The position numbers and the translations under genes were made by a program. The notes under the pieces were generated by a model. It saw only the letters and a program-made list of their open reading frames with translations, made no database searches and was not told the origin of the DNA. From Candidatus Methylomirabilota bacterium (GTDB lineage: Bacteria; Methylomirabilota; Methylomirabilia; Methylomirabilales; Methylomirabilaceae): a DNA stretch of 64,000 nt. Positions 19,003 to 33,982 of this stretch are shown here, one piece after another (the stretch's first letter is position 1; the number at the start of each line of letters is the position of its first letter). The stretch lies in assembly GCA_003104975.1 (NCBI GenBank), contig PQAM01000010.1, forward strand, positions 610,577-674,576. The letters are read 5' to 3'.

Positions 19003-21723
19003 ATGGCCGTGATCTACATCGACAAGCTGCCGTACGAGGTTGATGCCGGCGATAATCTTCTGCACGCCTGCCTGTCGCTGGGCTTCGACCTTCCGTACTT
19101 CTGCTGGCACCCGGCATTGAACTCAGTGGGCGCCTGTCGCCAATGCGCCATTAAGCAGTTCGAGGATGAGGAGGACACGAAGGGCAGGATCGTCATGGCC
19201 TGCATGACGCCGGCCGTCGACGGAACACATATCTCGATCGACGATCCGGAGGCGGCAGCATTCCGGGCCGGCGTGATCGAGTGGTTGATGGAGAACCACC
19301 CGCACGATTGTCCCGTCTGCGATGAAGGAGGCGAGTGCCACCTGCAGGATATGACGGTGATGACGGGTCATATCTATCGCCGCTGTCGGTTCAAGAAGCG
19401 AACACACCGGAATCAGTACCTCGGCCCCTTTCTCAATCATGAAATGAATCGATGTATCCAGTGTTACCGGTGCGTTCGCTTCTATCGGGATTATGCGGGA
19501 GGCCGGGACCTCGACGTCTTTGCCGCGCGCAATTACGTCTACTTCGGCCGTCATGAGGACGGGGTGCTGGAAAACGAGTTCAGCGGCAATCTGGTGGAGA
19601 TCTGCCCCACAGGGGTCTTCACCGATAAGACCCTGAAGCGTCATTACACCCGCAAATGGGATCTTCAGACGGCTCCCTCCATCTGCGTCCACTGCGGGCT
19701 GGGCTGTAACACAATCCCGGGCGAGCGCTACGGTACGCTGCGACGCATTCGCAACCGTTACAACGGCGAGGTCAACGGCTATTTCCTGTGCGACCGCGGG
19801 CGCTACGGCTACGAGTGCGTAAACAGTGAGCGCCGGATCCGCCGCCCGATGCTCCGCACCGGGCGCGGTGAGGAGAAGCAGCCTATCTCCAAGGACAGCA
19901 TCCTTCCGCATCTGGTCCGGCTTCTTTCAGATCGGTCGAGGGTGATCGGGATCGGATCGCCTCGGGCCTCGATCGAAGCGAACTTTGCATTGCGTACCCT
20001 CGTCGGTCCGGACCAGTTTTCTGTCGGCATCTGCGAACGGGACGTGCGCCTGCTGTCCGCGATCGTCGCGATTCTGCAAGACGGGCCGGCGCGATCGCCG
20101 TCGCTCCGGGACATTGAGCTATCCGATGCCGTGTTCGTGCTGGGTGAGGACGTGACCAACACGGCGCCGCGACTGGCGCTGGCCCTTCGCCAATCGGTGC
20201 GGCAAGCGCCGATGAAGATCGCCGACGCGTTGCGCATCCCCGTGTGGCACGATGCTGCCGTCCGGACAGCGATCCAGCACGCGAACGGGCCGCTGTTCCT
20301 CGCCGCCACAAGCAGCACGGGACTGGACGACGTGACGACGGAGAGCTATCGGGCAGCCCCTGACGATCTGGCCCGGCTCGGGTTCGCGGTCGCTCACGAG
20401 GTGAGCGACGACGCTCCACCAGTGCCTGATCTGCCGGCAGAACTGCGACCTGTGGCCAGGCGTATTGCGCAGGCGTTAGCGAGCGCCGCACGTCCGCTTG
20501 TGATCTCCGGGATCGGTTGTGGGAGCGAGCCCGTGATCCAGGCTGCCGCCAACGTGGCCTGGGCCCTGTGCGGGAAAGGCCGGCCCGCCGGCTTGTGCTT
20601 CACGATGCCGGAGTGCAACAGCCTTGGTCTTGCGCTCATGGGCGGCGACAGTCTCGGTCGGGCCTTCGAAATGGCGCAGCAGGGACGGGCGGATACGGTC
20701 ATCGTTCTGGAGAACGATCTTTACCGGCGGGCCGATGCTGTCGCTGTGGACGCGTTCCTGGACACGGTCCGCAACATTATTGTGATCGATCACCTGGACC
20801 ACGCGACTGTCTCAAAAGCCGACGTCACGCTCCCGGCCGCGACGTTTGCCGAGACGAGCGGCACACTGCTCAGCAGTGAAGGACGCGCTCAACGCTTTTA
20901 TAGCGTCATGACGCCGGATGGGGAGATTCAGGAAAGCTGGAAATGGGTTCGCGATCTGTTGACAGCCGCTGGCCGCGCGGACGGCCCCGTCTGGCGGACC
21001 CTGGACGAGATTGTTGCTGCGTGCGCGCATACCGTGCCGGCGTTCAAGCGGCTCCGGGAGGCGGCGCCGTCGGCTGACTTTCGCATGGCGGGTCAGAAGA
21101 TTCCGCGCGAGCCGGCCCGGTACAGCGGCCGTACGGCCATGCACGCCCAAGTGAGCGTTCACGAGCCGAAGGCGTCCGACGATCCCGACTCGCCTTTCGC
21201 CTTTTCGATGGAAGGGTACCCGGGTGAACCGCCGTCCCCGCTCATCCCGTTCTTCTGGGCGCCAGGCTGGAACTCCGTTCAGTCGGTCAACAAGTTCCAG
21301 AGCGAGGTGGGTGGCCCATTACACGGTGGAGATCCCGGCGTACGGCTGCTTGAGCCGGCCGGGAATGGAACAGCGCGCTACTTCAGCGACCCTCCTCGAG
21401 CCTTCGAGCGCAGGAGCGATGCGTGGCTGGTGGCGCCGTTCTTTCACATCTTCGGGACCGAGGAGCTGAGCATGCTGGCCCCTGCCGTGGCGGAACGCGC
21501 GCCCCGGCCCTATCTGGCGCTGAATCCTACCGATGCCGTAGCGCTCGATGCCGGTCCTGGTGAGGAGGTGAACCTGGTCCTGGGCGAGGTTGGTTACCGC
21601 CTGCCGGTGATCCTCAATGCGTCGCTGCCTGTTGGGTTAGCCGGACTCCCTGTCGGCGTGCCCGGCTTGATCGGGATCGACCTGCCTGCGTGGGGTAGGA
21701 TAGTGAAAGCCGAGTCGGCATGA
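19003..21723 (+). CDS. nuoG: NADH-quinone oxidoreductase subunit G
   Basis: The protein has 906 residues. The N terminus has the [2Fe-2S] ferredoxin domain with the cysteines of CWHPAL, CRQC and ACMTPA. Then come the His-Cys ligand set [14 protein letters not shown], the N4/N5 motif CIQCYRC and CPTG. The extra N7 cluster set CVHC-x3-C-x27-C is intact. The molybdopterin-oxidoreductase-like body follows. It carries electrons from NuoF towards NuoI. Its stop overlaps the nuoH ATG by four bases. Confidence 0.95.
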
Positions 21724-22682
21724 ATGAACTGATGCGATCGGGCGCGAATATCGTCGCTGTGCTCATCGGGGCGCTCACCACGGCTGCGTTCCTGATCTGG
21801 CTCGAGCGGCGCCTGCTGGCGCTCTGGCAGGATCGGTACGGTCCGAACCGTGTCGGGCCCTTCGGCCTGCTGCAGGTGCCGGCCGACGCGATCAAACTGT
21901 TCGCCAAGGAGGACTGGGTTCCCCCATTCGCCGAGAAGGCGGTCTTCATTCTCGCGCCGGCTGTGATCATGGTCGCCGTGCTGCTGTCGTTCGCGGTCGT
22001 GCCTATCGCGCCGGGCATCGGCGTGACGGATCTGAACATCGGGCTGCTGTTCTTCCTGGCGATGTCGTCGCTCGGAGTCTACAGCATCGTTCTGGCGGGC
22101 TGGGCGTCCAATAACAAGTATGCCCTCCTGGGAGGGCTGCGCGCGTCAGCGCAGATGCTGAGCTATGAGGTCTTCATGGGGCTTTCGGTGATGGGGGTGG
22201 TTATGCTGGCCGGAACGTTTGATCTGCGCAGCATCGTGGACGCCCAGAAAGATCTGTGGTTCTGTATTCCGCAGGCGCTTGGCCTGTTCGTCTTCGTTGT
22301 GGCGGGCATCGCTGAGACGCGCCGTCTGCCGTTCGATCTGCCCGAGGCGGAAAGCGAGCTCGTCGCGGGCTTTCACACAGAGTACTCCGGCATGAAGTTC
22401 GGGATGTTCTTTGTGGGTGAGTATCTCGGGATGACCCTGATATCAACCATGATCGTGACACTCTTCTTTGGCGGGTGGCTGGGCCCCTGGCTGCCGCCGC
22501 TCGTCTGGTTCCTGCTGAAGACCTTCGTCTTCGTCTGTTTCTTCATCCTGCTTCGGGCCGCGCTTCCGAGGCCGCGCTACGACCAGCTCATGGCGTTCGC
22601 ATGGAAGGTCATGCTGCCGCTTGCGTTGCTGAACCTGATCGTCACGGGCGGCATTGTGCTGGCGCTGAGTTCGAGGACATGA
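21720..22682 (+). CDS. nuoH: NADH-quinone oxidoreductase subunit H
   Basis: The protein has 320 residues with about eight membrane helices. Conserved loops [14 protein letters not shown] near 39-52, [17 protein letters not shown]-like near 125, and [20 protein letters not shown] near 200 mark NuoH. It holds the quinone chamber and links the hydrophilic to the membrane arm. It overlaps nuoG at its start. Confidence 0.96.
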
Positions 22683-22698
22683 CAATGGGTGGTGCGCG

Positions 22699-23214
22699 AT
22701 GCTCAGCCTTGTGAAAACTCTGTGGCGCGTCTGTGTGCACGCCCTTCGACGGCGGGTTACGGTCCAGTACCCGGAGCAGAAACCCTACCTGCCGCCCAGG
22801 TGGAGAGGGCGAATCGTTCTCACCCGTGACCCGGACGGCGGCGAGCGCTGCGTGGCCTGTTACCTCTGCGCCGCGGCATGCCCGCCGGACTGCATCTCGC
22901 TTCAGGCCACGGAGGACGAGCACGGCAGACGATACCCGCAGTTTTTCCGCATCAACTTCTCGCGCTGCATCTTTTGCGGGTTTTGCGAAGAGGCGTGTCC
23001 CACCTACGCGATCCAACTCACCCCCGACATTGAGATGGGCGAATACAATCGACGCAACCTGGTCTACGAGAAGGCAGACCTGTTGATCAGCGGCCCCGGC
23101 AAGTATCCCGAGTACAACTTCTACCGGGTTGCCGGAGTGGCCATCGGTGGGAAAGGCAAGGGCGAGAATGAGAATGAGGAGACGCCGGTCGATGTTCGAA
23201 GTCTCATGCCGTAA
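22699..23214 (+). CDS. nuoI: NADH-quinone oxidoreductase subunit I
   Basis: The protein has 171 residues with two [4Fe-4S] ferredoxin motifs, [12 protein letters not shown] near 52-63 and [12 protein letters not shown] near 93-104, for clusters N6a and N6b. It passes electrons to NuoB. It lies 16 bases after nuoH. The C-terminal tail is rich in Gly, Lys and Glu and is probably unstructured. Confidence 0.95.
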
Positions 23215-23241
23215 TGGGAATCTCGCGCCGGCGTAACGTCG

Positions 23242-23745
23242 ATGGACGTGGCGTTCTATATCGCGGCGAGTGTAGCCATCGGCTCCACCGTCATGGTGGT
23301 CACAGCCTTGAGAGCGGTGCACGCCTTGCTCTATCTGATCGTCTCGCTGCTCTCCGTGGCAGTGATCTTCTTTATGCTTGGCGCTCCATTTATCGCGGCC
23401 CTGGAGGCGATCGTATACGCCGGGGCCATCATGGTCCTGTTCGTCTTCGCGATCATGCTCCTCAACCTCGGTTCGGCAGAGGCGGCGCAGGAGCGGCAGT
23501 GGTTGAACCCCCGGATGTGGGCGGGTCCGTCGATCCTGTGTGTCGTGCTGCTGGGGGAACTGATCTACATCCTGTCCCGCGGTGAGAGCCATGGATCCAG
23601 CGCGACCGTCGTCGGTCCAAAACAGGTGAGCGTCGTCCTGTTGGGACCGTACCTGATCGGCGTCGAGCTGGCCTCGATGCTGCTGCTGGCGGGTCTGATC
23701 GGCGCCTACCACCTTGGCCGGCCTAGCCAGAGGGAGCGCGGATAA
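23242..23745 (+). CDS. nuoJ: NADH-quinone oxidoreductase subunit J
   Basis: The protein has 167 residues with five membrane helices. [20 protein letters not shown] near 53-72 contains the pi-bulge helix typical of NuoJ. It is part of the proton-pumping membrane arm. It lies between nuoI and nuoK with only short gaps. Confidence 0.94.
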
Positions 23746-23749
23746 TCTC

Positions 23750-24058
23750 ATGGTCTCGATCCCTGTAGAACACGGATTGCTGCTGGCCGGGATCCTCTTT
23801 GGAGTGGGGCTGATCGGTCTGCTTGTCCGCCGCAATATCATCTTCATCCTGATGTCGATCGAAATTATGCTGAACGCAGCCGGCCTCGCCTTTGTCGTGG
23901 CCGGCGCGCGGTGGGGACAGGCCGACGGACAGGTCATGTTCATCTTCATCCTGACGATGGCGGCTGCGGAGGTCTCGGTTGGGCTGGCGCTGGTTCTGCA
24001 GATGTATTCCCGCCTCAAGACGCTTGACGTAGACGCCGCCAGCGGTATGCGGGGATGA
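23750..24058 (+). CDS. nuoK: NADH-quinone oxidoreductase subunit K
   Basis: The protein has 102 residues from the ATG at 23750, four bases after the nuoJ stop. The frame opens earlier at 23714 but would overlap nuoJ with a non-NuoK sequence. Three helices are seen, with the conserved membrane glutamates in [12 protein letters not shown] and in [12 protein letters not shown], as expected for a proton channel subunit. Confidence 0.95.
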
Positions 24059-24059
24059 G

Positions 24060-25952
24060 ATGCTCCAATCGCTCTGGCTGATTCCAGCGTTGCCGTACGG
24101 CGGTTTCCTTGTGCTGGCCGTGGCAGGAGGTCGGCTCTCGCGAAGGCGTGCGGCTGTGGTTGGGGTTGGGTCGGTGGGCCTCTCGGCGCTGGTGGCGTTC
24201 CTGGTAGCGATCCGGTTTCTTCTGTTGCCTCCTCCCGGCGGGGCCTTTGCCCAGTCGCTCTGGATCTGGATGGACGTCGGCGGGTTCGCGTCCCGGATCG
24301 GGCTTTACCTCGATCCGCTGTCACTGGTCATGACGCTGGTGATCACCTTCGTCAGTGTTCTCATTCACCTCTACTCCTCAGAGTTCATGATCGACGACGA
24401 AGGATACAGCCGCTTCTTCGCCTACATGAATCTGTTCGTGGGCTCGATGCTGACGCTGGTGCTGGCCGACAACCTGCTGCTCCTGTACCTCGGCTGGGAA
24501 GGGGTCGGCCTGTGCAGCTATCTCCTTATCGGGTTCTGGTATACGGACCCGGCCAACGGGCGGGCCGCCCAGAAGGCCTTCATTGTCACACGGATCGGCG
24601 ACAGCGCGATGGCGATCGGCCTGTTCCTCCTCTTCTGGCATCTGGGCACCCTGGACCTTCAGGAGATGATGGTCCGGGCCTCCCGGCAGTGGCCCGTCGG
24701 ATCGGGCCTGGCCACCGCCGCGGCGGCTCTACTCCTGGCAGGCGCGCTCGGCAAGTCGGCCCAGCTTCCATTGCAGACCTGGCTGCCCGATGCCATGGCA
24801 GGCCCGACGCCGGTGAGCGCGCTCATCCACGCGGCGACGATGGTAACCGCCGGGGTCTATCTGATCGCGCGGGTTCATCCGCTCTACACCCTGACGCCTC
24901 ACGTTCAGTTCGCGGTCGCCGTCATCGGCGCGCTGACACTGCTGGTGGCGGGCTGCAGCGCGCTGGTCCAGCGGGACATCAAGCGCGTCCTGGCCTACTC
25001 GACGATCAGTCAGATCGGGTACATGTTCCTGGCGCTTGGGGTGGGAGCTTGGTCTGCCGCCATGTTCCACTTCGTGACCCATGCCTTCTTCAAGGCGCTG
25101 CTCTTCCTGGCGGCCGGCGCCGTGATTCAGAGCCTGCATCACGAACATGACATCTTCAGGATGGGAGGCTTGCGGAAAGAGCTTCCCCTGACCTTTTGGA
25201 CCTTTCTTATCGGCAGCGCCTCGCTGGCGGGGTTCCCCCTCGTCACGGCGGGCTTCTACAGCAAAGATTGGATCTTGTGGGAGAGCTGGTCCTCCAGCAT
25301 CGGCAGCCACTGGTTGTGGGCGGCGGGATGGCTTGGCGCCTTACTCACCTCGCTCTACATCTTTCGGGTAGTCTTTGTCGTATTTTTCGGCGCGCCCGTC
25401 TCACGAGCGAGCGTCAAGCCCGGCCTCAGGATCACCATCCCCCTGGTCATCCTGGCCATCCTGTCGGCAGGAGCAGGTTTCCTGGAGGTGCCGCATTCGC
25501 TAGGCGGCGTATCCCTTTTCTCAAGTTTCATTGAGTCCGCCTTGCCGCGGATGGGGACCCCGCATGCAGGCGCGGGGGCTGAAATGCGGCTGTTGATTCT
25601 GGCTATGACGGCTTCGCTGCTCGGGATCTACCTGGCCTACCTGTTGTGGCATCGAAGCCCACATCTGGGCGAGCGGATCGCCCAATCCGCTGCAGGTGCA
25701 GCGTTGCACCGCTTCTGGTTCGCTGGCTGGGGGTGTGATTGGCTGTACGATCGGTTGGTGGTGCGACCATTCGTATGGGCCGCCCTCGCGAACAAAGACG
25801 ACGTCATCGACACGATCTACCAGGGTACCGCTGTGGTCAGTCAGCGGTCCCACCGCGTGCTCCGTCTCTCGCAGACCGGACGGGTACGATCATACGCGGC
25901 GGTGATCGTGGCCGGCTCAGTGCTCATCGTGGCCATTGTGTTGCTGACATGA
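24060..25952 (+). CDS. nuoL: NADH-quinone oxidoreductase subunit L
   Basis: The protein has 630 residues of an antiporter-like proton pump subunit. LLYLGWEGVGLCSYLLIGFW holds the helix-5 glutamate, and LPLQTWLPDAMAGPTPVSAL and the HDIFRMGGL loop are conserved. The C terminus forms the long lateral helix that braces the membrane arm. Its stop overlaps the nuoM ATG by ATGA. Confidence 0.95.
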   Translation: MLQSLWLIPALPYGGFLVLAVAGGRLSRRRAAVVGVGSVGLSALVAFLVAIRFLLLPPPGGAFAQSLWIWMDVGGFASRIGLYLDPLSLVMTLVITFVSVLIHLYSSEFMIDDEGYSRFFAYMNLFVGSMLTLVLADNLLLLYLGWEGVGLCSYLLIGFWYTDPANGRAAQKAFIVTRIGDSAMAIGLFLLFWHLGTLDLQEMMVRASRQWPVGSGLATAAAALLLAGALGKSAQLPLQTWLPDAMAGPTPVSALIHAATMVTAGVYLIARVHPLYTLTPHVQFAVAVIGALTLLVAGCSALVQRDIKRVLAYSTISQIGYMFLALGVGAWSAAMFHFVTHAFFKALLFLAAGAVIQSLHHEHDIFRMGGLRKELPLTFWTFLIGSASLAGFPLVTAGFYSKDWILWESWSSSIGSHWLWAAGWLGALLTSLYIFRVVFVVFFGAPVSRASVKPGLRITIPLVILAILSAGAGFLEVPHSLGGVSLFSSFIESALPRMGTPHAGAGAEMRLLILAMTASLLGIYLAYLLWHRSPHLGERIAQSAAGAALHRFWFAGWGCDWLYDRLVVRPFVWAALANKDDVIDTIYQGTAVVSQRSHRVLRLSQTGRVRSYAAVIVAGSVLIVAIVLLT

Positions 25953-27460
25953 TCCTCGCTTGGGTGATTGCTATTGTACTTTCCGGCGGGCTTCTGGCAT
26001 GGTCCCTTGAACGGATGGGTCCCCACTGGCCGCGATGGATCTCAGTGGCCGCCCTCGTGATCGACCTGGTGCTGGCGCTGACCATGTGGTGGATGGGGTA
26101 TGTTGGCCTTACCAAAATGGAGCATAGCGGAGGGTGGCTGGCAGAGGCGGATTGGGACTGGATCCCACGGTTCGGCATCCGCTTCCACCTGGCGGCAGAT
26201 GGTCTGAGTCTGCTGCTAGTCCTGCTGACGCTTTTCCTGGGTATCGCGTCCGTCGGCGCGTCGTGGACCGAGGTGAAGGAACGAGTGGGCTTCTTCCACT
26301 TCAACCTGATGTGGGTCCTGGGGGGGGTGCTTGGCGTCTTTCTGGCCCTGGACCTGTTCCTCTTCTATTTCTTCTGGGAGATGATGCTGGTCCCGATGTA
26401 TTTCCTCATCGGCATCTGGGGCCATGAGAATCGGGTCTATGCGGCGATCAAATTCTTCCTCTTCACACAGGCCAGCGGCCTCCTGATGCTGGTGGCTATC
26501 GTCAGCCTGTACTTCGTTCATCATGCCAGTACCGGCGTCTATACCTTCGACTATTTTCGGCTGCTCGGCACGCCGCTGCAGTCATCGACCGGGATGTGGA
26601 TGATGCTGGGCTTCTTCATCGCCTTTGCCGTCAAGCTGCCGGCCGTGCCGTTCCACACCTGGCTCCCTGACGCTCACACCGAGGCCCCGACCGCCGGCAG
26701 TGTGATCCTCGCGGGCCTGCTGTTGAAGACCGGCGCATACGGTCTTATGCGCTTTGTGGTCCCACTGTTTCCAGAGGCGGCGCACGCCTTTGCGCCAATG
26801 GGAATGGCGCTGGGCGTCATCGGGATTCTGTACGGCGCCGTCATGGCCTTCGCCCAGACCGATCTCAAGCGGCTCGTGGCCTACACCAGCGTCAGTCATC
26901 TTGGCTTCGTCCTCATCGGGGTCTTCGCCTGGAATGAGCTTGCGCTGCAAGGCGCCATCATGCAGATGATCTGCCACGGCATCAGCACGGGGGCGCTATT
27001 CATCCTTGTCGGCGCGCTTGCCGAGCGGATCCATACCCGCGACATCCGGCGCATGGGCGGTCTCTGGTCCGTCGTGCCTCGAATGGCCGGGGTCGGGATG
27101 ATCTTTGCCCTCGCCTCGTTGGGATTGCCGGGTCTGGGCAACTTCGTGGCCGAATTCCTGGTCCTCTTGGGCGCCTATCGAGCCAACATCATCTTGGCGG
27201 CGATTGCTACGGTCGGTCTCGTCACCGCCACCATCTATTCACTCAGCCTGGTTCAGAGGACATTTCACGGTCCCAACACGGCAGGGTGGGCGCCCCCTGA
27301 CTTCTCGATTCGGGAGATGGCCGTCATGGCGGCGATGATCGCTGCGATCGTCTGGCTAGGGCTTTACCCTCAGCCGGTGCTCGCTACGGCTCGTCCGACA
27401 CTGACCGGCCTCCAACAATATGCGGTCCAGGGCCTCCATCTGCGAGAGGATATACCGTGA
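25949..27460 (+). CDS. nuoM: NADH-quinone oxidoreductase subunit M
   Basis: The protein has 503 residues from the ATG at 25949, which overlaps the nuoL stop. FYFFWEMMLVPMYFLIGIWG contains the key helix-5 glutamate, and KLPAVPFHTWLPDAHTEAPT is the conserved helix-7 region. It is the central antiporter-like subunit of the membrane arm. A longer upstream frame inside nuoL is not used. It overlaps the nuoN GTG start by four bases. Confidence 0.95.
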   Translation: MILAWVIAIVLSGGLLAWSLERMGPHWPRWISVAALVIDLVLALTMWWMGYVGLTKMEHSGGWLAEADWDWIPRFGIRFHLAADGLSLLLVLLTLFLGIASVGASWTEVKERVGFFHFNLMWVLGGVLGVFLALDLFLFYFFWEMMLVPMYFLIGIWGHENRVYAAIKFFLFTQASGLLMLVAIVSLYFVHHASTGVYTFDYFRLLGTPLQSSTGMWMMLGFFIAFAVKLPAVPFHTWLPDAHTEAPTAGSVILAGLLLKTGAYGLMRFVVPLFPEAAHAFAPMGMALGVIGILYGAVMAFAQTDLKRLVAYTSVSHLGFVLIGVFAWNELALQGAIMQMICHGISTGALFILVGALAERIHTRDIRRMGGLWSVVPRMAGVGMIFALASLGLPGLGNFVAEFLVLLGAYRANIILAAIATVGLVTATIYSLSLVQRTFHGPNTAGWAPPDFSIREMAVMAAMIAAIVWLGLYPQPVLATARPTLTGLQQYAVQGLHLREDIP

Positions 27461-28908
27461 GCGGTGCAGACGTCGTCACCCTGTTGCCGCTGATGGTGAT
27501 CGGTGCGGCTGCCGTGACGATCATGCTGCAGGCGGCATTCTATCGCCATCACCTTGCAGCGGTCGTCCTGACGTTGTTGGGGCTTGCGCTGAGCCTCGCA
27601 TCACTCCTGCCCGCATCACGCTATCTGCCACGCCCTGTGACGCCTCTCCTGGTACTCGATCGCTTCGCGCTCTTTTATGTGGGGTTGATCCTGGCCGCGT
27701 GCATTGGCGTGACGCTCCTTTCGTACGGTTATCTCAAGATACGAACGGGCGAGTACGAAGAGTTTTATGCCTTATTGCTCCTGGCGACACTGGGCGCCAT
27801 GGTGCTGGTGACCAGCAGTCACTTTGTCTCGTTTTTCCTGGGATTGGAGCTGTTGAGCGTGTCCCTCTATGTCCTGATTGCCTACGTCCGGACCGAAGGG
27901 CGGCCGCTCGAGGCAGGCCTGAAATATCTGATCCTGGCTGCGGCCTCCTCCGCATTTCTGCTGTTCGGGATGGCACTAATCTACGCACAGGCCGGGACGC
28001 TGGCGTTCGGAGGCGCGGCATCGTGGGTTCGCGCCGGGACAGACGCGCCCAGCCTCTACCTGATGACTGGTCTCGCCTTGATGATCACAGGAATCGGATT
28101 TAAGTTGGCGGTTGTCCCGTTCCACATGTGGACGCCTGATATCTACGAGGGGGCCCCTGCGCCGGTCACAGCCTTTGTGGCGACAGTCTCTAAGGGCGCG
28201 ATGTTTGCCTTCGCGCTTCGCTTCTTCAACCAGACAGAGGGACACGGCTATCGTTCGCTGACCCTAGTCTTCAGTCTGATGGCCATCGCGTCGATGTTCG
28301 CTGGCAATCTGCTGGCGCTCATGCAGGACAACGTTAAGCGGATCCTCGCCTACTCATCGATTGCCCACCTGGGCTACCTGCTGGTGGCGTTGCTGGCTGC
28401 CGGTTCTTTGGCGGTGGAGGCCGTCACCTTCTATCTGGTTGCCTACTTCGTGACAACGCTGGGCGCCTTCGGTATTGTCGCTGTCTTGTCTGGGAGGGAG
28501 GGCGATGCGGACGCAATGGCTGATTACCGGGCTCTGTTCTGGCAGCGGCCGGGCATCGCCTGTGTCTTTACGGCGATGCTCGTCTCGCTAGCCGGTATCC
28601 CACTGACGGCCGGGTTTGTCGGTAAGTTCTTTATCGTGACCGCCGGGATCGGATCGGCTTTGTGGGGGCTGGTACTCGTCCTCGTACTCAACAGCGCGAT
28701 CGGGATGTTTTACTATCTGCGGATTATTGTGACGATGTTCTCTCAGCCTTCGGCGGGGCATCTCGCGACGACTCCAGCGCCGCTTCCGGCCTATACTCAT
28801 GGAGGGGCGATGGTCCTGGCCGTCCTCATGCTCTTGCTGATCTGGCTGGGGGTCTTTCCTGGCTTCATGCTCCGTATGATCCAGCAAACGGCCCAGAGCC
28901 TCTTGTGA
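27457..28908 (+). CDS. nuoN: NADH-quinone oxidoreductase subunit N
   Basis: The protein has 483 residues with a GTG start at 27457 overlapping the nuoM stop. It is the third antiporter-like subunit, with FFLGLELLSVSLYVLIAY near 127-144 and VVPFHMWTPDIYEGAPAPVT near 218-237. It completes a nuo operon with no gene missing. Only 18 bases separate its stop from the stop of the convergent ComA-like gene, and I see no strong terminator hairpin there. Confidence 0.95.
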   Translation: MSGADVVTLLPLMVIGAAAVTIMLQAAFYRHHLAAVVLTLLGLALSLASLLPASRYLPRPVTPLLVLDRFALFYVGLILAACIGVTLLSYGYLKIRTGEYEEFYALLLLATLGAMVLVTSSHFVSFFLGLELLSVSLYVLIAYVRTEGRPLEAGLKYLILAAASSAFLLFGMALIYAQAGTLAFGGAASWVRAGTDAPSLYLMTGLALMITGIGFKLAVVPFHMWTPDIYEGAPAPVTAFVATVSKGAMFAFALRFFNQTEGHGYRSLTLVFSLMAIASMFAGNLLALMQDNVKRILAYSSIAHLGYLLVALLAAGSLAVEAVTFYLVAYFVTTLGAFGIVAVLSGREGDADAMADYRALFWQRPGIACVFTAMLVSLAGIPLTAGFVGKFFIVTAGIGSALWGLVLVLVLNSAIGMFYYLRIIVTMFSQPSAGHLATTPAPLPAYTHGGAMVLAVLMLLLIWLGVFPGFMLRMIQQTAQSLL

Positions 28909-28926: not shown

Positions 28927-29769
28927 TCAACCCTTGTAGGTGACGACTCGACCCCAGAGGCTTTTCGTCCCCCAGATGCCCGACCGGAGACATTCGAGCT
29001 GAACGATCTGGCTGTGATCTACGAACAGGTTCACCTCGGGGCCGTAATTCTTGATATACCACGCGAAGACCTCCGGATCAGCAGCCTCGAACATCACCCT
29101 TTCCAGCCCCAGCGCATTGATGATCTTGGCTACTGCATCGGTGCGCCAGATCGTGACGTTTTCCGTGATCCCCTCCGATTCGATCATAATCAGATAGGCC
29201 CCGACCTCCAGGAAACGCTTGGCCTGCAGGATGGCCCACTCGGGATCTCGCGTGCCCTCGGCTTCCAACTCTGCGGAGGCCGTCGCGCCGCCGGCGCCGA
29301 ACTGAATACCGATCTCTGGCTTGGCCTTCATCCCTGCCTTATGCACGGCCTCCACCAGCCGAAGCCAATCATCGGTGGGAATCGTGATGAAACCGGCGGA
29401 GATTTCGATGATGTCGAATTCCAGCTCCCGGCAGGTGTCGATGTACCGTTTGACGGCCTGCGGCCCCTGCGCCACGACTCGTTCGATGAATCCTCCGGTA
29501 GAGACCAGGACATTATACCGGTGGCAGAGGTCGATGAGCTCCTTGACGGCTGTCCGTGGCATCAGGCTGAACGATCCGCCGGCGAACTTCAAGGCATCAA
29601 CGTAGGTTCCCATCGTCTCCAGCAGGTCCTCCAGGTATCGCTTGCCAATCGGAGTGTAGTAGGGCCCGCGGATCTCGGTGACGCCGCTTCTGCGCGGCTT
29701 TGCCGGCCGCTCATTGAGCCTGAGAAAGTCAAACGCCCGCTCATCGTGCGTGGATTGTAATCGGGCCAT
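28927..29769 (-). CDS. Phosphosulfolactate synthase (ComA)-like protein
   Basis: The protein has 280 residues and begins at an ATG behind AAAGGAGGA. The barrel motifs fit the ComA family: TYVDALKFAGGSF near 55-67, VLVSTGGFIERV near 87-98, DIIEISAGFITI near 119-130, KPEIGIQFG near 149-157 and MIESEGITEN near 195-204. The founding enzyme adds sulfite to phosphoenolpyruvate in coenzyme M synthesis, and plant and bacterial relatives exist whose substrates are unclear. No comB, comC or comDE is in the window. Its neighbour is a MmgE/PrpD protein, so a role in coenzyme M synthesis is unproven. The fold is clear; the reaction is less so. Confidence 0.8.
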   Translation of the reverse strand: MARLQSTHDERAFDFLRLNERPAKPRRSGVTEIRGPYYTPIGKRYLEDLLETMGTYVDALKFAGGSFSLMPRTAVKELIDLCHRYNVLVSTGGFIERVVAQGPQAVKRYIDTCRELEFDIIEISAGFITIPTDDWLRLVEAVHKAGMKAKPEIGIQFGAGGATASAELEAEGTRDPEWAILQAKRFLEVGAYLIMIESEGITENVTIWRTDAVAKIINALGLERVMFEAADPEVFAWYIKNYGPEVNLFVDHSQIVQLECLRSGIWGTKSLWGRVVTYKG

Positions 29770-29794
29770 TGTCTATCCTCCTTTTGTGGGCCGT

Positions 29795-31165
29795 TCATCC
29801 GCTCCGGCGCACCTGGCCGAGCAGCCGCATCAGATCTGAGATGCGAAGTGATTCGATGTCGGCGACGGCATCCACGATTGCGCGACGGAGCGAGACATCG
29901 CTGTATGGGGCGCTGAGCCGCTCGAACTTCTGAACGACTGTCTCCCATGTTGTCGGCCGAGTGTGAAACCCCTCGTAGTCCAGTTTCTCTTTGACCAGGG
30001 TCCGGCCGTCAGCCAGCAACACCGTGAGGCGACATGGCATCCGATCCGGAAAGTACTGGCTATACACATCCGACGGCCTCACCGAGACCTTTCGGAGCAA
30101 CGCCTGAACGTCCTCCCGACGGATCCGCTCCGACCGATACTGTTCCGGCATGACTTGGCCATCCAGCATGGCGACGGCCACCAGGTACGGCAAACTGTGG
30201 TCGGCCTCTTCCTTCGAGCGAACGATGGTCTTATTCCCTTCCTTGCCGCCGCCGATAATATGGTACGCCACGTCAAAAATCTCGATCTCAACGAGCGACA
30301 CCTCTTCCACGCGAAGAGTGTGCTCGCGCGTCAGTTCGAGGATTCCCTCGAGGGCCGACTGGGAGTGGATCTCGGCATTATATTTCTTGAGGATGGTGTG
30401 CGTCACGCGTTCGAGATCCTCTTTGGACCAGTCGATCTCGAAGGGTCCGGCGATGGTATCCATGAATCCGTTTTTACCCTCGAAGACCTCCAGTGGACCG
30501 GTGATGCCGCGCATGGCCAGGAAGGCCGAGTGAGTAGCGCCAAACGCAGTGTTGGGGTAGGCCAAACCTTTCCAGTGTGATAACGCCCCAGTGCGTGTGA
30601 CTCGCAGCGCAGGGAACGCGGTCCCGCTGATGGCGATCGCATTCGCAGTTTGCGAGCGGCTCAACCCCAGGGCCTTCGACACGCCGGCCGCAGCGGCGTA
30701 CGCCCCCTGGGTTGTGTGGTCAAAGCCTCTGCCTCGCACAGGCGCCACATCGCTCAGGCGGCACTGAACCTGGTAGGCGACCGCGAGGGCGGTGAGAAGC
30801 CCTCGGCCGTCCTGGTTCGCATACTCAGCGGCGGCCAGGACCGCACCGAGGTTATCGCTCGGATGGCAGGTTTCCCCCTTGGCCAGATAACTGTCGTTGA
30901 AATCGAGATAGCGCACCAGCGCGCCGTTATAGAGTGCCGTACGGTCAGGGGCCGTCTGCCCTCCGCCGATCAGGGTACAGTGTTGAGCGCCCCCGAACTC
31001 CTCAGTCTGCGCTCGGAGCGACCGGATGGGCTCTCCATCAAGCGCCCCGATTGCGCAACCAAGTGCGTCCAGGATCCTGATCTTGAGCTGTTGTCGCGCC
31101 GCACGGGAGAGATCGGAATAGGAAGATCTCAGAACGAGTGCCGCCAACCGTTCGGCCATCGTCAT
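29795..31165 (-). CDS. MmgE/PrpD family protein (2-methylcitrate dehydratase-like)
   Basis: The protein has 456 residues. It has the PrpD layout: an all-helical N-terminal domain with RILDALGCAIGAL near 29-41, VRYLDFNDSYL near 83-93 and ETCHPSDNLGAVLAAAEYA near 97-115, then a lid domain with VAYHIIGGGKEGNKT. Family members dehydrate 2-methylcitrate or decarboxylate cis-aconitate, and many have unknown substrates. No prpB or prpC is nearby, so a methylcitrate cycle role is not supported. It is 25 bases upstream of the ComA-like gene and probably co-transcribed. An in-frame ATG at 31159 is an equally good start. Confidence 0.88.
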   Translation of the reverse strand: MTMAERLAALVLRSSYSDLSRAARQQLKIRILDALGCAIGALDGEPIRSLRAQTEEFGGAQHCTLIGGGQTAPDRTALYNGALVRYLDFNDSYLAKGETCHPSDNLGAVLAAAEYANQDGRGLLTALAVAYQVQCRLSDVAPVRGRGFDHTTQGAYAAAAGVSKALGLSRSQTANAIAISGTAFPALRVTRTGALSHWKGLAYPNTAFGATHSAFLAMRGITGPLEVFEGKNGFMDTIAGPFEIDWSKEDLERVTHTILKKYNAEIHSQSALEGILELTREHTLRVEEVSLVEIEIFDVAYHIIGGGKEGNKTIVRSKEEADHSLPYLVAVAMLDGQVMPEQYRSERIRREDVQALLRKVSVRPSDVYSQYFPDRMPCRLTVLLADGRTLVKEKLDYEGFHTRPTTWETVVQKFERLSAPYSDVSLRRAIVDAVADIESLRISDLMRLLGQVRRSG

Positions 31166-31214
31166 CTGGATTCCCCACTACCTTTTCGTACGCCCACCAT
31201 ATCGGGAGCGCTCG

Positions 31215-31397
31215 TCACGCAGCCTTACAGAACTGTCGATACAGAAACTCCTCCTGCAGCGGGGTAAGATTGAACTCCTTGCTGGCCTCATCGATCAGTT
31301 TCCCGCGATTGCTCTCCGGCTGCTCTTCTATGCGTTCACTCAGCCATTCAATTGCCCGTTCCAACGCTCGGTCCCGCAATGCTCGTTGTGCTCTCAT
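31215..31397 (-). CDS. Small helical protein, unknown function
   Basis: This 60-residue protein has a very good ribosome binding site (GGGAGGAAGAACCG before the ATG at 31397). The sequence is charged and helical, ending in LTPLQEEFLYRQFCKAA. It resembles a small helix-turn-helix-like or adaptor fold, but I recognise no family. It lies 49 bases upstream of the PrpD-like gene on the same strand and may be the first gene of that small operon. The signal for translation is better than for most short frames in this genome. Confidence 0.6.
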   Translation of the reverse strand: MRAQRALRDRALERAIEWLSERIEEQPESNRGKLIDEASKEFNLTPLQEEFLYRQFCKAA

Positions 31398-33174: not shown

Positions 33175-33300
33175 ATGAAAATCGTCATCCTCGCCGGGGG
33201 TCTCGGCGCCGGCCTCAGCGACGAGACCGATACGCGCCCCAAACCGATGGTCGTAATCGGCGGGCGGAGAGTTCGCAATTCGGCTACGGGCCCGTACTGA
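33175..33300 (+). pseudogene. 5' fragment of glucose-1-phosphate cytidylyltransferase (rfbF-like)
   Basis: From an ATG at 33175 the frame encodes 41 residues. They open with the nucleotidyltransferase signature KIVILAGGLGAGLSDETDTR, followed by PKPMVVIGG. This matches the first 30 residues of RfbF-type cytidylyltransferases, which make CDP-glucose for deoxysugars. Even so, the conserved G-T-R of the signature reads G-A-G. The protein then runs into unrelated residues and a stop that overlaps the next start (tgATG). More than 200 residues are missing. It lies at the edge of the polysaccharide cluster and is a relic of a deoxysugar pathway. Confidence 0.7.
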
Positions 33301-33982
33301 TGTGCGGCATTGCCGGCATTGCGAGATTCGACGGGCAGGTTACATCAAGAGATGTAACGGGTGTCCTGCGGATGATGGACGCTCAGGTACATCGAGGACC
33401 GGATGACTGGGGACTTCTGTTGCCTGAAGCCGCGCTTCGAAACACAGAGAATCGTGCAGTGCTCGAACGCCGGGGCATGGACCACGTCCGGACGTATGTC
33501 GCGTCAGCCCCAGCAGTCGTTCTGGGCTCTCGCCGTCTTTCCATCATCGATCTGTCTCGTTGGGGGCGAATGCCGATGGGAAACGCCGACGGGCGAGTGT
33601 GGATCACCTATAACGGTGAGATCTGCAACACTCGCGAACTACAACCGAACTTCAGCGCCTGGGGTATTCGTTCCAGTCTGACGCCGACACCGAGATTATC
33701 CTCCACGGCTACGAAGAGTGGGGCGAAGAGGTGCTCTCACGCCTCCGTGGGATGTTTGCCTTTGCCGTACTGGATACCCGGGAGTTGCCCTGTCTACTGC
33801 TCGCCCGGGACCGCGTTGGGGTCAAGCCTCTGTACTATTACCAGGATGGCGATGCCATGATCTTCGCATCCGAGGTCAGAGCCCTCGTGAAAAGCGAACT
33901 TGTGCAGAGCATGCAGGCCTCATCCGATTCGGACCATAAACTGGTCGAGGCCGTGGGCGCTCGCTGTGCTGGATCGGTGTGA
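33300..33982 (+). pseudogene. Asparagine synthetase (glutamine-hydrolysing), frameshifted and truncated
   Basis: The frame from 33300 starts MCGIAGIARFDG with the N-terminal cysteine of class II glutaminase domains, and continues through HRGPDDWG and LSIIDLSRWG to WITYNGEI. Near 33656-33660 a one-base loss shifts the frame. The expected continuation (LGYSFQSDADTEIILHGYEE) is read in another frame, which then carries RLRGMFAFAVLDTRE, LLLARDRVGVKPLYYY and IFASEVRALVKS up to a stop at 33982. The whole ATP-dependent synthetase domain, about 350 residues, is absent. AsnB paralogues are common in polysaccharide loci. This one cannot make a complete enzyme even if the frameshift is a sequencing error. 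Confidence 0.8.

Follow-up and report, generated by a model that had tools for sequence, protein, structure and literature searches.

The window analysed here, a 64,000-nucleotide stretch of a Candidatus Methylomirabilota contig, carries on its minus strand a gene of the MmgE/PrpD family (29795..31165, 456 aa), followed after a gap of 25 bases by a ComA-like TIM-barrel gene (28927..29769, 280 aa), which we refer to as ComA2. The original prediction had assigned the two open reading frames (ORFs) to these families, and the Pfam scores bear this out. In particular, the PrpD-family protein matches both domain models (MmgE_PrpD_N, 243 bits; MmgE_PrpD_C, 141 bits) and falls in the clade of ComA2-linked PrpDs described below, and ComA2 scores 280 bits on the Pfam ComA model against a cut-off of 25.2 and differs from M. 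jannaschii ComA by the replacements K137Q and R170E. The motif AGGAGG (29777..29782, minus strand), located within the 25-base gap, is probably the ribosome-binding site of ComA2. Downstream of ComA2, and convergent with it, lies a NuoN-like gene (27457-28908; Pfam Proton_antipo_M) at the edge of a nuo operon (21720-28908). This operon is divergent: in each of 14 congeners, the best match to its NuoN-like protein reaches no more than 39-44% identity, and further NuoN-like matches on contig C4 of the window genome probably mark a second nuo set. At 33300-33982, a glutamine amidotransferase (asparagine-synthase-like) domain is split between two frames, adjoining a glycosyltransferase cluster, and resembles a gene remnant.

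A 60-aa ORF (31215..31397, minus strand) lies 49 bases upstream of PrpD, and it had been grouped with the two genes into a three-gene operon, with the proposal to look for the same grouping in other genomes. The PrpD-ComA2 part of that operon stands, with its 25-base gap and the conservation reported below; the small protein is not conserved with the pair, as a tblastn match at E<=0.01 is absent from the 92 loci compared (the window's own locus, L001, ends before the ORF). The 60-aa protein was found in two of 14 congeners, at 63-64% identity, and ComA was found in neither of the two, one of which is an 80% complete draft; in one congener its gene follows MlaC-like and RND-type genes (ORFs as read). 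It was rejected as a third member of the unit on the grounds of its absence from related loci and its other context in congeners, and its position upstream of the window PrpD is probably incidental.

Conservation and spread of the PrpD-ComA2 pair

A scan of genome contigs with the window ComA2 protein yielded 96 encoded relatives, the best 80 of which were analysed. These are 69-83% identical to the window protein and occur in Chloroflexota, Nitrospirota, Acidobacteriota, Armatimonadota, Myxococcota, Balneolota, Calditrichota, Planctomycetota, Verrucomicrobiota and other phyla. PrpD adjoins ComA2 in 47 of these best 80 loci, and the linked PrpDs are 59-76% identical to that of the window, some of them being truncated at the end of a contig (L018, L037 and L061) or interrupted (L020 and L071). 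The 80 loci are not independent, nine of the linked ones belonging to Balneolaceae and 23 of the unlinked ones to a single Verrucomicrobia clade. The gap between the two genes lies between -60 and +100 bases in 50 of the 56 linked loci measured, with a median of 24, the start of ComA being extrapolated from that of the window gene; in L063 the order of PrpD and ComA2 is reversed.

Furthermore, 35 records of a plasmid collection match the ComA2 protein, and six close ones were examined. An annotated MmgE/PrpD gene adjoins ComA2 or lies within 2 kb of it in five of them (Salinibacter, Methylosinus, Halorussus, Methylocystis and Haladaptatus), and in the sixth, from Natrinema halophilum, a PrpD annotation is absent and just one fragment matches. 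The Halorussus limi plasmid (L115) carries, between PrpD and ComA2, a gene annotated as a CGCGG-family rSAM-modified RiPP.

Within the window's own phylum, ComA2 and a PrpD of at least 70% identity co-occur in the same three of 95 genomes, a short ComA fragment (L091) being left unclassified, and the next best PrpD among the matches at E<=1e-60 is 39% identical. None of the 14 congeners, several of whose genomes are incomplete, yielded a ComA, and this absence fits an acquisition by transfer. The pairing of ComA2 with PrpD far exceeds chance, and its patchy occurrence over distant phyla suggests that the pair was spread by horizontal transfer. Our literature search found no paper joining ComA or phosphosulfolactate synthase with MmgE/PrpD.

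ComA2 has no adjoining PrpD in 33 of the 80 loci, which comprise the 23 of the Verrucomicrobia clade, three Manganitrophus-like ones and seven scattered ones. Among the 33 genomes concerned, many of which are drafts, three encode a 72% identical PrpD elsewhere, 28 have a best match of at most 41% and two have no match; for 17 of the 28 the match was placed in the tree and falls outside the ComA2-linked clade. Identity alone is no proof of a missing partner, because haloarchaeal members of the clade are just 42-44% identical to the window PrpD. The distribution of unlinked ComA2 looks like repeated loss of PrpD, and since 30 of the 33 genomes have no PrpD above 41%, ComA2 can act alone or with another partner. 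The 20 flanking proteins compared, of which 17 belong to unlinked loci, revealed no common replacement for PrpD. Manganitrophus has PrpD in two forms: the first is accompanied by prpB, and the second, which is 72% identical to the window's, lies apart from ComA2; in L105 and L107 such a linked-clade PrpD is located near DJ-1/PfpI and GH123-like genes and not near ComA2.

The Pfam tallies of the other neighbours cover 137 and 103 ORFs, that is, 240 of 284, with all those of L058, L064 and L114 and some others left out. No family exceeds four members in either tally except DUF488 (5/137 and 3/103). Within the sequence covered, 12 of 86 loci contain DUF488, and PrpD is linked in every one of these; DUF488 lies directly downstream of ComA2 in L004, L005, L058, L062 and L064 and nearby in the seven others. 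This frequency is too weak for DUF488 to be included as a third conserved partner, and our literature search gave no useful lead on its role.

Features of the ComA2 and PrpD proteins

ComA2 has the Pfam ComA domain and the TIM barrel in common with the canonical ComAs of M. jannaschii (1qwg), B. subtilis (1u83) and Xanthobacter (XcbB1). Among the best 1000 Foldseek chains, within which the VIA-align structure comparisons of both ComA2 and PrpD were made, the predicted ComA2 model matches 1qwg with a Z of 28.3 and an rmsd of 2.4 over 240 residues, and its best match outside the ComA family is pyruvate carboxylase (Z 16.6). The sequence alignment consists of 89 ComA2 rows (88 distinct, the window gene having been entered twice) and 11 canonical ComAs, namely, XcbB1, the M. 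jannaschii protein, one from Bradyrhizobium and eight from the window's phylum; the ComA tree is a quick one. ComA2 is 24-26% identical to ten canonical rows, and 89 of its 280 positions, the conserved acids included, are invariant across 43 rows.

The original prediction had proposed to check whether the active-site residues of ComA are kept, and the answer is divided. Many charged residues are retained, as the ComA2 rows (n = 89) have K24, R26, K61, the GG pair, E96, E122, S124, E152, E197, E228 and R262, with equivalents of M. jannaschii K43, E79, E103, E133, E168 and E205. However, in each of the 88 distinct members, Q156 and E199 stand in place of M. jannaschii K137, which we take to be catalytic, and R170; the canonical rows have a lysine at the first of these positions in 10 of 11 cases and an arginine at the second in 8 of 11. 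In the predicted structure, Q156 and E199 both follow barrel strand ends, which is where the active site of such a barrel would be expected. Because K137 and R170 are replaced throughout, ComA2 appears not to be a canonical phosphosulfolactate synthase, and sequence and model together describe it as a ComA fold with a putatively altered pocket. On the arch_ComA equivalog model (TIGR03849) it scores 95.3 bits against a cut-off of 280, the model being named for archaeal ComA, so that bacterial ComAs may fail it too. That we are dealing with a conserved two-gene unit whose ComA pocket is altered is, in our judgment, very probable.

The fold of the window PrpD matches 11 solved MmgE/PrpD members (Z 33.2 to 38.7), the best being the cis-aconitate decarboxylase IRG1 (Z 38.7) and iminodisuccinate epimerase, a likeness that says nothing of function. 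With the 2-methylcitrate dehydratase of prpDBC loci, which is also its nearest group by identity, it shares the family and the catalytic-type residues: D88, D91, H101, PSDN, H150, K199, K260 and E265 do not vary across 34 rows comprising linked and prpB-type PrpDs. The nearest PrpDs (34-41% identity) are the second Manganitrophus copy and Verrucomicrobia ones, and the two whose neighbours were scored (Manganitrophus and Verrucomicrobium) both have a prpB over the cut-off and a citrate-synthase-II-type gene. Different from these, the window PrpD belongs to a clade of its own, and neither prpB nor prpC was found beside it. The ComA2-linked PrpDs, haloarchaeal ones included, form this one clade with an SH-aLRT of 99, in a quick tree in which long branches are flagged and the fork joining the clade to its relatives is not fixed; unlinked Manganitrophus copies fall inside it. 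Moreover, 23 positions are near-fixed with differing residues between the groups (55 versus 10 rows), and loop insertions and deletions occur as well. On the NCBIfam prpD models the window protein scores between 108 and 145 bits, where the cut-offs range from 458 to 950, and two prpB-adjacent PrpDs also stay below them (131 to 217).

The window genome has a single PrpD match and no prpB match, both at E<=0.001, and for this reason we see no methylcitrate cycle here; that cycle was rejected as an explanation, given that the two related PrpDs scored have prpB alongside. Across 19 ComA2 genomes, prpB is over the cut-off in five, and eight, the window's included, have no match at E<=0.001.

Possible chemistry of the pair

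PrpD and ComA2 thus constitute a real, conserved and uncharacterised two-gene module. The locus had been described as unlike the known coenzyme M and methylcitrate loci and as a candidate for an undescribed pathway, and we agree on both counts. In the coenzyme M cluster of Xanthobacter pXAUT01, the partners of XcbB1 are two fumarate lyases beside it, in place of the PrpD that accompanies ComA2, and the cluster also has a desulfhydrase-type PLP gene; genes of these two types are absent beside the window ComA2 and among the 25 commonest Pfam families listed for each neighbour tally (137 and 103 ORFs). The arrangement is likewise unlike prpDBC, and a ComA-PrpD pairing conserved over phyla may fairly be taken to reflect an undescribed pathway.

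In the reading that we prefer, the two proteins would act successively on one small carboxylic acid. PrpD would remove the proton beside the carboxylate and, as 2-methylcitrate dehydratase does, add or eliminate either water or a different beta leaving group; we select this elimination or hydration from several known chemistries, because PrpD-family enzymes can also decarboxylate or epimerise. ComA2 could then perform enolate chemistry in its barrel on the PrpD product, the likeliest reactions being a retro-Michael or retro-aldol cleavage, or else the corresponding addition, and would so stand in for PrpB in a sequence of the PrpD-to-PrpB type. Since neither a transporter nor a kinase nor a CoA enzyme is conspicuous next to the two genes, their products would probably salvage an endogenous or damaged metabolite and act neither on sulfite plus PEP nor on an imported sulfonate. 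Taken as a whole, the proposal of a horizontally spread unit of a PrpD paralogue and ComA2, acting in sequence on a small carboxylic acid by the chemistry outlined, falls a little short of an even chance.

The idea of a sulfonate pathway, raised in the original prediction, comes out weakened. Coenzyme M synthesis in Xanthobacter passes from phosphosulfolactate to sulfoacrylate by means of a lyase; ComA2 would here join sulfite and PEP, and PrpD would replace that lyase by taking the phosphate off phosphosulfolactate to give sulfoacrylate. The ComA fold is retained in ComA2, as are most of the acidic residues of the active site, and what keeps a sulfolactate or sulfonate reading alive is a ComB-family gene (PF04029) located elsewhere in 13 of 19 ComA2 genomes, including that of the window, where it lies on the same contig at a distance of about 189 kb; however, the family is also present in 7 of 14 control genomes. 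PrpD and ComA have, in addition, met at least twice, as a Bradyrhizobium guangxiense plasmid (L119, one of seven such records examined) holds a PrpD-PrpF-canonical ComA cluster. Like the window, it has PrpD and the ComA family in one gene run, but its PrpD is 22-23% identical to the window's, its ComA is closer to XcbB1 and PrpF stands between them; judged by these features, the pairing is independent of the PrpD-ComA2 one. The cluster, in whose vicinity lie a tricarboxylate-transporter substrate-binding gene and an IclR regulator, is perhaps a catabolic use of a ComA. Against the sulfonate pathway stand the two canonical cationic residues turned into Q and E in all 88 distinct ComA2 members, the arch_ComA score of 95 against 280 and the absence of later sulfonate or coenzyme M enzymes from the 25 commonest neighbour families listed per tally, and we hold it to be improbable.

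A different lead comes from plant HSA32, for which we know of neither a PrpD partner nor a reaction. A provisional stretch of the HSA32 sequence, used as the query, shares 36-46% identity with 89 full-length ComA2 rows, as against 19-26% with 10 canonical ComAs; we treat this closer resemblance to ComA2 as a lead and not as a test. A review states that heat-stress memory requires HSA32 and that this protein stabilises HSP101 (PMC11840417), and a sudangrass study assigns a gene matching a maize phosphosulfolactate-synthase-related protein to Pfam ComA (PMC5415614). The successive action of PrpD and ComA2 on a carboxylic acid might then be carried further: ComA2 and HSA32 would make up one enzyme family other than phosphosulfolactate synthase, with this PrpD as its ancestral bacterial partner, and the operon would point to the chemistry of HSA32, a carboxylate dehydratase-lyase pair clearing a stress-formed metabolite and spread horizontally via bacteria and haloarchaea into plants. 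We consider this extension rather unlikely. The conserved PrpD partner offers a tangible way into a protein family that has a plant relative important for heat memory.

The HSA32 resemblance and the stabilisation of HSP101 could also be taken to mean that ComA2 protects against stress mainly by protein-protein contact, not catalysis, with PrpD as an accessory, and the Dps and DsrE genes that flank the pair on the Salinibacter plasmid are consistent with this. However, the 89 invariant positions, acids included, form an enzyme-like pattern, and heat-shock families are missing from the 25 commonest ones listed per neighbour tally (down to two members); such a role seems distinctly improbable. 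An ordinary methylcitrate-cycle PrpD adjoining a ComA relative by accident would account for the retained PrpD fold and catalytic-type residues, but it is largely refuted, and its probability is very small, in view of the clade apart from prpB-linked PrpDs, the eight of 19 ComA2 genomes with no prpB match and the ComA2 pairing kept across phyla.

If ComA2 has a chemistry other than that of ComA, the label phosphosulfolactate synthase would be wrong in many phyla. An Alicyclobacillus genome paper applies it, in the excerpted text, without an assay, to a gene that may belong to either subfamily (PMC10562698). In the plasmid annotations, the two genes are labelled "phosphosulfolactate synthase" and "MmgE/PrpD family protein."
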